A stretch of 23,835 bases of DNA from Bdellovibrio sp. (GTDB lineage Bacteria; Myxococcota; SpSt-1050). The translations under genes were made by a program, and so were the position numbers. The stretch spans positions 1 through 23,835 of the forward strand of contig DYEF01000098.1 in NCBI GenBank assembly GCA_020725805.1, read 5' to 3'. The notes beneath the pieces were generated by a model. That model was not told the origin of the DNA. It did no database searches and worked only from the letters and a program-made list of their open reading frames with translations. How positions within the stretch are numbered: position 1 is the first letter of the stretch; each line of letters starts with the position of its first letter. Shown one piece after another: positions 18,998 through 23,835 of this stretch.

Positions 18998-21757
18998 ATG
19001 AAAAAATTCAGGACATCAAAAAAGGTCTTTTTGGAAGCGTTGGTTTTGCTTGTGACAACGGCTTTTGCTCTACAGACTGAAGCGGCTGTCTATAGAGATG
19101 ATTTTTCGGGCGGTATTAATTCTTCTCACTGGACGGTAAATTCGGGTATTTTCACCGTTGACGATTCACTTGGTAGTATTCATATAAGCAAATCATTCGG
19201 AGGCTCCGGTGCTCCGAGTGAGTGGGCAAGAATTCATTTCAATCACGCTTTGTATGGTAATTTTGAGATATCCGTAGATTACAGGGATGCAAACCTCTCC
19301 GGTTGTCAGAATCAGATACAACTCAATCTGGTCTTCGGAGGACAATATGCGGCAAACAGAAGGGAAAACTGGTGTGAAAGCAGATATTCAGTCTGGCTTG
19401 ACCCTCCGCAGTCAACGGTCGGGGCAACAGGGACATCGGATACAGCCGGTACATTGAGGATAACCCGAACAGGCAGCACGGTCAGATTTTATGCGAACAA
19501 CACAATGATTTATGAAGGTGTTTTCAATAATTCTCCCGTAACTGATTTATGGTTGTCTTTACAGAATAACGGTTCTGCTGATGCCATCTCGGTAACTTTT
19601 GATAACTTCTCAGTTGTAGCCGATTCAATTGAGGGAATCTGTGTGCCTCCGCCTTCCGGTATGATTTCATGGTGGGGTGGAGATAACAATGCCCTTGACA
19701 TAGCCGGCTCAAATCACGGGACATTAATGAATGGAGCAACTTATACACAAGGTAAAGTAAGACAGGCTTTTAGTTTTGATGGGATTGACGATTATGTGGT
19801 AGTTCCTGATTCCCCTTCGCTTGATATAACTACCCAATTTACACTTGATGCCTGGGTCTATTCAAAAGGTAATCCGGGAGGATGGCCTGATAAAGCTATT
19901 ATTTCCAAAGTAGGTGGTTCTGGAGGTAATAATGGATACCAGATGGGCTTAACACCAGACGGAGCAAACTGGAAAGTTTTTTGTATTTTTAATGCAAACG
20001 GTGAAGGATGGCCCGCAAATTTTGTTGTGGGGGGAACTGTTACAAATAACGTCTGGTATCATATTGCCTGTACTTATGATAACAATGACCTAAAAATTTA
20101 CGTCAATGGAATACTTGTAGGAGCGAAAAATGTGGGAGCCAAAAGTGTAGTTAATTCATCTTCTACTCTTAGAATTAGTGGTGATGATAACGATCACGCA
20201 TATTTCTATGGCTATATTGACGAACCAGAAGTATTTAACCGGGCCCTTACTGCCGAAGAAATCGCTACGATTTATAATGCCGGAAGCTCCGGGAAATGCT
20301 TTACAGCAGATACCACACCTGATGCCTTCATATTTACAGATCAGACGGACGTTGATGTAAACAAGGTGATAACTTCAAATACAATCACTGTAAGCGGAAT
20401 CAATACACCTGTAGCCGTTTCAATCAGTTCCTGCACAGGCACAGACTGTGAATACCAGATCAATGGCGGCACTTGGACGTCGGATGCAGGTACAGTCCAG
20501 AACGGAGACGCAGTCGCGGTCCGTCAGAGGTCATCTGGTAATTACTCGACACAGACCGACCTGACACTTGATATCGGCGGAGTTACTGATACGTTCAGCG
20601 TAACGACGATGCCGATACCTCAATATACCCTTACAGTCATTAAATCAGGGACAGGTACAGGGACGGTGATGAGCAGTCCGGCAGGAATAGATTGTGGCTC
20701 AGACTGCACTGAGGAGTATGATTACAATACACAGGTTGTTCTGAAAGCCGTAGCGGATACAGGTTCGGCCTTTGCGGGTTGGAGCGGTGATTGTTCGGGT
20801 TCGGATGCAGAGATTACCGTTACAATGGATAAAGACAGGAGCTGCACTGCGACATTCACCCTTAATGAGTATACAATCATTACAACGGCTGACCCGCAGG
20901 CAGGCGGAAGTATTGTATGCAATCCAAATCCTGTAAATCACGGCTCAGTCTCTGTCTGCACGATAATAACGAATACAGGATATACGTTGCAGAGTGTAAC
21001 AGGCACCTGCGGAGGCTCGCTTAATGGTGACAAATACACAACGGATACTATAGTATCAGACTGTATGATTACGGCAGTCTTTGCCATCAACAGATATACA
21101 CTTATGGTGGATAAGTCAGGTACGGGGACAGGAACGGTGGCGAGCAGTCCGGCAGGAATAGATTGCGGGTCAGATTGTATGGAGGAGTACAACTACAATA
21201 CTCAGGTGATTCTGAATGCCGTAGCGGATACAGGTTCGGCATTTGCGGGTTGGAGCGGGGATTGTTCGGGTTCGGATGCAGAGATTACCGTTACAATGGA
21301 TAAAGACAGGAGTTGCACTGCGACATTTGTTATAAAGAGCGAGACGGATGCCGGATATGATGCAGGTAATGATACCGGAGAGGATGTAGCGGTTCAGGAT
21401 GTGTCGGGAGATGCGACGGAAGATGTTACAGCTGACACGATAACGGAGGATGTAGTAACGGATACAGCTGAGGATATTATTGCTGACACCGCAACGGAGG
21501 ATGTTATATCAGATGCTACGGTTGACGGAGGCGAAGATACTATCGATGCCGGTATAAAGGAAGACGCGGTGAGCGACACAATGTATGATACCGGAACAGA
21601 TGTGTTCGGTCAGGACGTATATGTAACAGACACATTAAGGGATACAGGGACAGAGGATGTAAAGGATATCGGCGGAATAAAGGATGTCCTCAATGTCGCA
21701 GATAAGGGAGAGGACGGGTCCGGCAGCGAGGGTTGTTCCTGCAGCCTTTTATATTAG
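18998..21757 (+). CDS. Large secreted LamG / InlB-like repeat protein with Asp-rich tail and GCSC C-terminus
   Basis: A 919-residue secreted protein. Signal peptide: KKFRTSKK, a hydrophobic core, and likely cleavage near TEA-AVY (about residue 30). Residues about 31-210 are a concanavalin-like beta-sandwich (YRDDFSGGINSSHWTV to VTFDNFSVVADS). Residues about 215-435 are a LamG (Laminin_G_3 type) domain with ISWWGGDNNALDIAGSNHG, FSFDGIDDYVVVP, WYHIACTYDNNDLKIYVNG and EPEVFNRALTAEEIATIYN. A linker domain (about 440-540) precedes three InlB B-repeat-like units, the first and third nearly identical. Residues about 780-905 are an Asp/Thr/Val-rich low-complexity tail, and the protein ends GCSCSLLY. 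ATG follows AAGGAG. LamG domains often bind glycans; a surface adhesive role is inferred. Confidence 0.9.
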   Translation: MKKFRTSKKVFLEALVLLVTTAFALQTEAAVYRDDFSGGINSSHWTVNSGIFTVDDSLGSIHISKSFGGSGAPSEWARIHFNHALYGNFEISVDYRDANLSGCQNQIQLNLVFGGQYAANRRENWCESRYSVWLDPPQSTVGATGTSDTAGTLRITRTGSTVRFYANNTMIYEGVFNNSPVTDLWLSLQNNGSADAISVTFDNFSVVADSIEGICVPPPSGMISWWGGDNNALDIAGSNHGTLMNGATYTQGKVRQAFSFDGIDDYVVVPDSPSLDITTQFTLDAWVYSKGNPGGWPDKAIISKVGGSGGNNGYQMGLTPDGANWKVFCIFNANGEGWPANFVVGGTVTNNVWYHIACTYDNNDLKIYVNGILVGAKNVGAKSVVNSSSTLRISGDDNDHAYFYGYIDEPEVFNRALTAEEIATIYNAGSSGKCFTADTTPDAFIFTDQTDVDVNKVITSNTITVSGINTPVAVSISSCTGTDCEYQINGGTWTSDAGTVQNGDAVAVRQRSSGNYSTQTDLTLDIGGVTDTFSVTTMPIPQYTLTVIKSGTGTGTVMSSPAGIDCGSDCTEEYDYNTQVVLKAVADTGSAFAGWSGDCSGSDAEITVTMDKDRSCTATFTLNEYTIITTADPQAGGSIVCNPNPVNHGSVSVCTIITNTGYTLQSVTGTCGGSLNGDKYTTDTIVSDCMITAVFAINRYTLMVDKSGTGTGTVASSPAGIDCGSDCMEEYNYNTQVILNAVADTGSAFAGWSGDCSGSDAEITVTMDKDRSCTATFVIKSETDAGYDAGNDTGEDVAVQDVSGDATEDVTADTITEDVVTDTAEDIIADTATEDVISDATVDGGEDTIDAGIKEDAVSDTMYDTGTDVFGQDVYVTDTLRDTGTEDVKDIGGIKDVLNVADKGEDGSGSEGCSCSLLY
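20624..21328 (+). repeat. Three InlB-like coding repeats in the LamG gene
   Basis: Units at 20624-20857, 20870-21082 and 21095-21328. The first and third are both 234 nt and nearly identical over their last 110 nt (from GTAGCGGATACAGG to CTGCACTGCGACAT), with only a handful of substitutions. The middle unit is 213 nt and divergent. Each carries paired Cys (for example DCGSDC and GDCSGSD), probably forming disulfides outside the cytoplasm. Confidence 0.88.
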
Positions 21758-21810
21758 AATGCTCTTTCGCCTTCGGCCTTCAATACTTTTTTCTGTGAAC
21801 TATGTTTCAA

Positions 21811-21885
21811 GGACATTGAGTAGGCTAAAGCCGTACCGAAATGTCCGACTTAGGTGGTGGCTTCGATACGCTTCGCTACTCAGCC
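21811..21885 (+). repeat. Palindromic repeat doublet (REP/BIME-like), 5' of the peptidase gene
   Basis: First unit 21811-21846: GGACATT (21811-21817) pairs with AATGTCC (21840-21846), with inner GGCT-AA-AGCC (21823-21832). Second unit, inverted, 21859-21885: on the - strand it reads GGCTGAGTAGCGAAGCGTAT then CGAAGCC. Both share the core TGAGTAG...(TA)(C/T)CGAA. The first unit recurs unchanged at 23734-23769. Confidence 0.85.
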
Positions 21886-22036: not shown

Positions 22037-23446
22037 ATGAAAAAACTGCTTATAGTATTTTTGTTCTGCTTACTTCTTTCTCCTTCTGTGCTCTATGCTG
22101 CCTTTGAGAATATCGCCCTGATTGAAGATACTGACGGCTCTATCAATTCCTCGGTAGCAATCGGAAATACATACCTCTCTAAGGCGAGCTGTGCATTCTT
22201 TAAGAAATACCCTCAGAACTTCGACGTGATTCTCTTCTTTACTACATACAAGACCACAATGTTCGGAACCCCTGAGGGGTGGGCGGTAAAGAGGAATATA
22301 AAGGGAATCGGATTCGATATGCCAACCGACCAGTCTTCGAAGTACTGCTCTGCAAACGGCAGACTCAGACACGCGATTAAACTTGCAGATATTGCTGTCT
22401 GGCCCGATAATCCCGAAGATGCCTACACCGGTGCAATAGGCGGTGTATATAACGGGCTCGAGGTGATAGGCCACGAAGTCGGACATCTCTGGCTTGTGGG
22501 TGCAAAGTATAAGGACGAAAACGGAAGTCATTGTACGCTACGGGCATTGATGCCTGATGCCCAGCCCTCCGGCGGAGAGTGCGACGGATACAAGGACTCC
22601 GACTTTCATATTCACTACTCGTATTACTTTGACTCCCGCTCAGTAATGTTCGGGAGTTTTATCGAGGACCTCGGAGGAGGGCAGTTCAGGTTTTATAATG
22701 AAAAGAGAGGGTTTTCACCGCTCGACCAGTACTTTATGGGATTACGGGATAAGAGCGAAGTACCAGAGATGCTTCTTGTAAATACAGGCAATATATCCGA
22801 TAGTTCGAATACTCCTCTTAAAAAGGGTGAGACAAAGACCATTAGCGGGAAGGGAGTAAAGGTAAATATCGGACAGATTATAGCGGCACTCGGAGACCGC
22901 GAGCCTGCTACCGAGCCCTGTCATATGAAGATGGCATTTGCAGTAATCTATCCGAAGGGTCAGGTTCCCTCCCATGCAGTTTTGCAGAAGGCCGAAAATT
23001 ACAGGGTAAAATTCGAGGAGTATTATATCTGGGCTACCTCCAACAGGGGCTCTGTGGATACCACTCTTGACGGCTCCGGAAAGGGCTCATCTTTTTGTCC
23101 CGCACCGCTTTCTGATGCCGGATATTCCGATATTTCCTATACGGATACCAATTATACCGATATAAGCCTTACTGATGTGAATTATGATATCTCAACTGAC
23201 TCTTTCATTACAGACGTCTCTTCTGATACCTATGTAAGTGATATTTCTGAGACAAAGGATGTCGTCCTCACAGATACAGAAGCCTCTGATACAGGTGCAG
23301 ATGTGCCGGTTAGAGAAGACGGGATGATTACGGAAGATATTTTCATTGAGGAAGATGCCATAGAAGAGGATATAACTGCGGTAAAAGATACAGCAAAAGA
23401 GAAGGCAGAAACCGATAGCGGTTGTTCCTGCAATTTACTATTTTAG
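22037..23446 (+). CDS. Secreted HExxH putative zinc metallopeptidase with Asp-rich tail and GCSC C-terminus
   Basis: From ATG 22037 (AAAGGAGG 6 nt upstream) the product has 469 residues; an upstream TTG at 22016 is less likely because the signal peptide begins at this ATG: MKKLLIVFLFCLLLSPSVLYAA, cleavage near YAA-F. The body (about 23-350) contains EVIGHEVGHLW with H146, E147 and H150 as a zinc-binding HExxH helix. Later motifs are SRSVMFGSFIEDLGGG and FSPLDQYFMGL. The metzincin extension HExxHxxGxxH is not met, so the third ligand is unclear. The tail (about 365-460) is Asp-rich with five-residue periods such as YSDIS, YTDTN and YTDIS, and the protein ends GCSCNLLF. Domain family by name is not recognised. 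REP-like repeats lie on both sides. Probably acts outside the cell or on the surface. Confidence 0.8.
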   Translation: MKKLLIVFLFCLLLSPSVLYAAFENIALIEDTDGSINSSVAIGNTYLSKASCAFFKKYPQNFDVILFFTTYKTTMFGTPEGWAVKRNIKGIGFDMPTDQSSKYCSANGRLRHAIKLADIAVWPDNPEDAYTGAIGGVYNGLEVIGHEVGHLWLVGAKYKDENGSHCTLRALMPDAQPSGGECDGYKDSDFHIHYSYYFDSRSVMFGSFIEDLGGGQFRFYNEKRGFSPLDQYFMGLRDKSEVPEMLLVNTGNISDSSNTPLKKGETKTISGKGVKVNIGQIIAALGDREPATEPCHMKMAFAVIYPKGQVPSHAVLQKAENYRVKFEEYYIWATSNRGSVDTTLDGSGKGSSFCPAPLSDAGYSDISYTDTNYTDISLTDVNYDISTDSFITDVSSDTYVSDISETKDVVLTDTEASDTGADVPVREDGMITEDIFIEEDAIEEDITAVKDTAKEKAETDSGCSCNLLF

Positions 23447-23550
23447 AATGCTCTTTGTATTGAATATTTGAGAGGGAATGTAGTCTTGTTGAGTATGATT
23501 GAATAGAATATCTGATTAGAAAAAAACCAAAGATTAAATCGCTGATAAAA

Positions 23551-23835
23551 GGGCGTTTAGTAGGCAAAGCTGTACCGAAATGTCCAAATGAGTTTGTCGC
23601 TTCGGTACACTCAATTACTCAGCGACCTTTAAATCGCAAGGACGTTGAGTAGCGAGCAAAGCGAGTATATCGAAACGCCTAATATAATCTTGGTTTCGAT
23701 GCACTCTATTACCCAGCGATCTTGGTATTAAAAGGACATTGAGTAGGCTAAAGCCGTACCGAAATGTCCGACTTAGGTGGTGGCTTTGGTATACTTTGCT
23801 ATAAAGTTTAAATTGGATGCTTCGAAATCCGTTGG
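23551..23835 (+). repeat. Cluster of palindromic (REP/BIME-like) repeats to the window end
   Basis: At least six units of the same family alternate in orientation: + 23551-23585, - 23596-23627, + 23640-23679, - about 23690-23725, + 23734-23769, and a degraded - unit from about 23782. The core TGAGTAG...TATCGAA or TACCGAA recurs, flanked by complementary arms. The + unit at 23734 is identical to that at 21811 and the similarity extends into GACTTAGGTGGTGGCTT. No coding sequence is seen between 23447 and the end. Confidence 0.85.

Follow-up and report, generated by a model that had tools for sequence, protein, structure and literature searches.

Two neighbouring genes in a 23,835-nucleotide stretch of DNA (hereafter, the window; contig DYEF01000098.1 of assembly GCA_020725805.1, Bdellovibrio sp.) encode secreted proteins that end in GCSCSLLY and GCSCNLLF, and this raises the question of whether such a short tail is a signal and, if so, what reads it. 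The kinds of prokaryotic C-terminal sorting signal that PMC11980579 reviews share a tripartite design of motif, helix and basic residues. In Myxococcus, MrtX cleaves the MYXO-CTERM signal, whose Cys residues are required; lipidation of these Cys is proposed, unproven, and a MYXO-CTERM protein reaches the surface via the type II secretion system (PMC11980579). Myxosortases had been predicted in a 2024 paper, according to the account of it in PMC11980579.

A preliminary description of the window, made from its letters alone, had reported the two C-termini on otherwise unrelated proteins, and shared DNA running beyond the stop codon. We verified the coordinates and both TAG stops (Table 1). Clustering assigns the bodies to different sequence clusters: the first protein is of LamG/InlB-repeat type and the second is HExxH metallopeptidase-like, with no match to its 469 aa in a Pfam search. 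The second protein has tagged kin, namely the paralogs L044 and L049 in the window genome (G000, 3.29 Mb), L117 in the single congener examined (G001; matching record JAOAFA010000044.1, Deltaproteobacteria bacterium SKW273) and a relative, L277, in Go_SlDig_bin_48 (G092). At the DNA level, the 37-nt block at 21731-21767 has 84% identity to the one at 23420-23456; both contain GGTTGTTCCTGC and TTAGAATGCTCTTT without a mismatch, and ten bases past the stop are the same in both. A 70-nt repeat also lies downstream of both tagged genes (21809-21878, 23548-23617, 23732-23801), its later two copies being 93% and 63% identical to the first, and no further copies were found in about 515 kb of window-genome stretches examined.

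Table 1. Tagged gene pair of the window and associated features.
Feature	Position	Strand	Basis
Secreted LamG / InlB-B-repeat protein, 919 aa, tag carrier	18998..21757	+	ORF list; Pfam Laminin_G_3 and Flg_new_2
Asp/Thr/Ser-rich linker ahead of tag 1	21343..21730	+	Sequence; linker vs body composition
Tag 1, GCSCSLLY (21731-21754), with stop TAG (21755-21757)	21731..21757	+	Sequence; pattern search
Ten bases 3' of the tag 1 stop, identical to 23447-23456	21758..21767	+	DNA comparison
Secreted HExxH (HEVGH) metallopeptidase-like protein, 469 aa, tag carrier	22037..23446	+	ORF list; clustering
Asp/Thr/Ser-rich linker ahead of tag 2	23109..23419	+	Sequence
Tag 2, GCSCNLLF (23420-23443), with stop TAG (23444-23446)	23420..23446	+	Sequence; pattern search

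The preliminary description had suggested searching the proteome for the tail on proteins with a signal peptide, and such proteins are numerous. A degenerate pattern, C-x-C-x-h-h-x-stop, occurs at 62 places in the window genome against 27 for the reversed control, and a leading Gly (GGNTGYNNNTGYNNNNTNNTNNNNTRR) lifts the tail far clear of chance: the window genome then gives 36 matches and the congener 23, where the reversed pattern gives 1 and 0, respectively. Taking reading frames into account leaves 66 tagged proteins, 44 from the window genome, one of them truncated where its contig stops, and 22 from the congener, counts that are lower bounds because carriers were searched by pattern. The 43 window-genome carriers analysed by clustering fall into at least 26 groups by sequence. 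A recent two-gene duplication, which the preliminary description had named as the outcome that would undo its reading, is ruled out by these 66 carriers and at least 26 clusters. Among 195 genomes of the phylum, the tag is confined to the window genus; the other 193 are without it, and six single matches in this set outside the genus all end in TGG rather than a stop. Two paralogous lipoproteins of the window genome (L108) end in CTCMSVQ and CSCMSVQ without Gly or Asp linker; we regard them as unrelated and excluded them from the counts.

The tails conform to an acidic/Ser-rich consensus, [S/D/E]-G-C-[S/G]-C-[S/N]-[L/F/V/I]-[I/L]-[E, less often N/D/Y/F/K/R]-COOH, in which the search pattern itself partly dictated both Cys and the two hydrophobic residues. 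Consensus positions of the window genome that owe nothing to the pattern are Gly -8 (39 of 44 tails), Ser -9 and -4, and Glu -1. Two-Cys tags have Cys at -5 and -7. Among 755 ORFs of the stretches examined, 65 contain [GSA]C[SGANE]C within 50 residues of the C-terminus, and each of them ends exactly four residues after the last Cys, a 65/65 count that is not fully independent since the same pattern retrieved most of the stretches; it bears out the reported absence of a helix and Arg cluster after the Cys motif. The preliminary description would have taken an Asp-rich linker in front of every motif as support for a sorting tag; the linker is usual, but it is absent from two carriers (L051 and L129).

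Of the 59 tagged ORFs available from end to end, 55 have a signal peptide as judged by a simple hydropathy rule, compared with 192 of 661 untagged ORFs, and the remaining four have an N-terminal hydrophobic segment if read from an alternative start. No other strong membrane segments were seen in the tagged proteins. In the stretches examined, secreted proteins with a strongly Asp/Glu/Ser/Thr-rich end but no tag are rare. A few tagged proteins (L051/L129, L096/L115 and L053) also look like N-terminal lipoproteins, for example ...LLGAFFIKGCGSSSS, and would thus have an anchor or signal at either end, so that the role of the tag probably goes beyond anchoring. GspD, the type II secretin, was found in 14 of 15 genomes tested, including the window genome.

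The phylum is assigned to Myxococcota on the strength of MYXO-CTERM content and organism titles. The MYXO-CTERM model (TIGR03901) scores over its cut-off in 47 of 56 genomes of the phylum, and has no match in the window genome or the congener. NCBIfam models compared with all 66 tails gave no match at E <= 5, which rules out a known CTERM family as the identity of the tag. One protein family joins the two forms: the 866-aa L051 protein (tail KAEAV--SGCSCSLIE, then stop) and a protein from a sister family (G002, L301:2998-5811:-; tail ISEVEANGCGCASVGAGDDAGLLALLAVLGAALAALRRRR, then stop) are identical at 326 of 814 positions (40%), and in their alignment the Cys motifs of the short tag and the full MYXO-CTERM coincide. 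The G002 tail scores 32 bits against a MYXO-CTERM cut-off of 20. Judged by this alignment, the short tag is the counterpart of the MYXO-CTERM signature motif, stripped of helix and Arg cluster. We found no description of a helix-free MYXO-CTERM form in the literature searched, which covers the question of priority only in part.

The preliminary description had also proposed looking for a co-occurring processing enzyme, and there is a single candidate. Each window-genus genome encodes exactly one CPBP (Rce1-like) protein, and the two are an ortholog pair of 218 aa (L142:6971-7627:- in the window genome and L143:7968-8624:- in the congener). They score 117.9 and 109.6 bits, respectively, against Mrt_core (NF040914; curated cut-off 100), and the catalytic motifs EExxxR, FxxxH and HxxxN are intact (E127 E128 R132, F163 H167, H203 N207). 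An AlphaFold2 model of the congener enzyme (pLDDT 94.8) matches the fold of SpdC (6u0o, Z 17.3) and that of the CAAX protease Rce1 (4cad, Z 14.7, 200 residues); a profile of the enzyme found no match among the sequences of solved structures. Judged by profile score and catalytic motifs, the sole CPBP protein of each window-genus genome is a myxosortase. In the sister-family genome G002, the enzyme adjoins the same DUF3108-like and TPR genes, as judged by eye.

A second short-tag group emerged from 50 genomes reached via myxosortase relatives. RA.bin96 (G086) has 19 matches resembling GCGC[S/T]VVF and Go_SlDig_bin_48 (G092) has 8, both with the tag architecture of the window genus. Nine UBP6-like genomes carry a one-Cys form, GCSMLF[I/V] followed by a stop, with 4 to 12 matches each and a control of 0; this is the weaker part of the group, as many carriers are paralogs and 2 of the 9 records are titled UBP6, the rest being grouped by the enzyme tree. 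The one-Cys and two-Cys forms are linked by a UBP6-like protein (L329, ending GCSILFI) that is identical at 263 of 486 positions to an RA.bin96 protein (L261, ending GCGCSLVM). Single-Cys ends, SACALVII in RA.bin96 (L270) and YGCNITLF in Go_SlDig_bin_48 (L274), also occur on relatives of tagged proteins and are perhaps intermediates towards the UBP6 form. RA.bin96 combines both tag forms with a single Mrt_core match: three tandem paralogs have full MYXO-CTERM-like ends, and these have short-tag relatives (41% identity over 601 aa). The myxosortase-like proteins of RA.bin96, Go_SlDig_bin_48 and UBP6 score 78-85 bits, under the Mrt_core cut-off of 100. In the myxosortase tree, the two short-tag enzyme groups stand apart, and an AU test does not reject a single clade (p 0.43), so the two groups may share one origin.

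No clear short tag was seen in five genomes with a myxosortase-like protein and without MYXO-CTERM (G059, G062, G064, G095, G100). In two of these, WY2.bin9 and DX4.bin27 (G059 and G062; L158, L161, L162), HxxxD replaces HxxxN in the enzyme, and neither a clear MYXO-CTERM nor a short tag is present. The other three (via L165, L201 and L207) have zero MYXO-CTERM matches and no clear excess of short tags, and may hold further tag variants.

We consider it likely that the tail serves across the proteome as a C-terminal sorting signal, a form of MYXO-CTERM pared down to the minimum and without the helix, which resembles a CAAX box and is read by the lone myxosortase, with cleavage, lipidation and surface display as the predicted outcome. 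Sec would export the carriers through the N-terminal signal peptide, and the Asp-rich linker would keep the C-terminal GC[S/G]C-S-h-h-X clear of the folded body. A membrane enzyme might then put a lipid on one of the two Cys, and the single CPBP protease would trim the residues past the modified Cys in the style of Rce1, which removes -aaX from the CAAX box. The type II secretion system could bring the protein to the cell surface, as MYXO-CTERM biology suggests. By analogy, the route here would be that of Myxococcus with the helix dispensed with. The minimal sorting signal that the preliminary description had put forward is well supported by dozens of unrelated exported carriers, by the absence of helix and Arg, by the replacement of MYXO-CTERM in a relative and by the candidate enzyme. 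Several points count against this reading. MYXO-CTERM is thought to need its helix for holding the substrate in the membrane, whereas here a soluble tail would have to reach an intramembrane protease. The enzymes of RA.bin96, Go_SlDig_bin_48 and UBP6 fall under the Mrt_core cut-off, and the five genomes with a myxosortase-like protein but no MYXO-CTERM show no clear short tag. Finally, the pairing of one enzyme with one tag within one genus amounts to a single evolutionary observation.

Other accounts of how the tails came about fare poorly. The preliminary description had also suggested that the motif moved among genes as a DNA cassette, an idea to which the ten shared bases past the stop and the 70-nt repeat copies downstream of both window genes lend some colour. 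It is refuted as a general explanation and holds only for the adjacent pair: GCxC is encoded by 53 distinct 12-nt spellings across 65 genes, the runner-up among all pairs of tagged genes shares an aligned post-stop run of 5 bases, and the 14-mer TTAGAATGCTCTTT was not found elsewhere in the genome stretches examined, so that we regard spread by a mobile cassette as very improbable. With so many spellings, and post-stop identity confined to the neighbouring pair, that identity reads as local duplication or gene conversion, a local event that says nothing on how the tag spread. Still harder to credit is a frameshift, stop-codon recoding or assembly error that conceals a normal helix and Arg cluster, a chance we consider negligible. 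Five tails do have a hydrophobic stretch in some downstream frame, but these stretches read as signal peptides that belong to the genes following the tails, and they lack an Arg cluster; moreover, all three stop codons are in use (TAA 26, TGA 25, TAG 14) and two independent genomes concur, with no continuation into helix plus Arg downstream, which rules out this account. The tails might instead be non-functional MYXO-CTERM remnants drifting without selection since the helix was lost. Descent from MYXO-CTERM is indeed plausible, but idle remnants are very improbable, if slightly less so than a cassette, given that dozens of unrelated proteins carry one short tail of constant length, and given its retention in all 18 reciprocal-best ortholog pairs between the window genome and congener, where identity is 71% in the tag and 72% in the body while it drops to 44% in the linker (both partners of each pair having been found through the same pattern).

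The most serious rival concerns the reader and not the tail. The tag might be recognized by something other than a myxosortase, such as a secretion receptor, a PDZ-like reader of free C-termini, or an attachment of the CxC through thiol, disulfide or metal, the myxosortase being kept for other substrates. For a tail without a helix, a protease within the membrane is a less than obvious reader, and the last residue, mostly Glu in the window genus and Phe in RA.bin96, shows the kind of preference that a reader of free C-termini would produce. Against this stand the related protein that has a full MYXO-CTERM where the tag would be, the identity of the genome's lone CPBP protein as a myxosortase, and the fact that zero other MYXO-CTERM substrates are left for that enzyme. 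The one-Cys UBP6 tags argue against an essential Cys pair, and together with the SACALVII and YGCNITLF ends they disfavour the view that the tag depends on a disulfide or a bound metal. We therefore hold a different reader to be unlikely, and retain reading by the myxosortase.

If the signal works as we propose, a motif-only signal that keeps the cognate type of protease would separate the part that the enzyme reads (Cys and short tail) from the part that holds the substrate in the membrane. It would also limit the ways in which the Cys of MYXO-CTERM can become modified, because the modifier must act without a helix. The short tag is easily tested as a reporter fusion, and RA.bin96, which appears to use both forms with its one enzyme match, offers a natural comparison. 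More broadly, and here we see the case as evenly balanced, this may be CAAX-type processing in the bacterial envelope, in which exported soluble proteins carry a helix-free Cys box that a transferase lipidates outside the cytoplasm before Rce1-type trimming, the whole having evolved by shortening of MYXO-CTERM; C-terminal sorting could then do without both helix and Arg cluster.

Compared with known systems, the tag resembles LPXTG, PEP-CTERM, PGF-CTERM and GlyGly-CTERM in being a C-terminal signal that numerous exported proteins have in common and that goes with a processing enzyme in the membrane, but those signals comprise motif, helix and basic residues (PMC11980579) and the tag is motif only. 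Like MYXO-CTERM, it is a C-terminal GC[S/G]C that follows a flexible linker in dozens of proteins with a signal peptide, in a genome that has a myxosortase and type II secretin, as MYXO-CTERM hosts do. Unlike MYXO-CTERM, it has no transmembrane helix, the chain stopping four residues past the last Cys; it has no Arg cluster, its last residue being mostly Glu, also Y, F, N or D; and it does not match the curated model TIGR03901. The window-genome enzyme is similar to the myxosortases MrtX, MrtC, MrtP and MrtJ (CPBP, NF040914) in exceeding the Mrt_core cut-off and possessing the catalytic motifs, and differs in scoring below the MrtX, MrtC and MrtP cut-offs and in its apparent substrates, which are helix-free. 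With the CAAX box, the tag shares a short helix-free tail in which a Cys and an aliphatic pair come before a last residue that varies, and with the CAAX/Rce1 system it shares a CPBP protease of the Rce1 fold. The tag Cys is fifth, not fourth, from the end, with one extra residue, and whereas CAAX proteins are cytosolic and prenylated on their Cys, the carriers of the tag have signal peptides and are hence exported.
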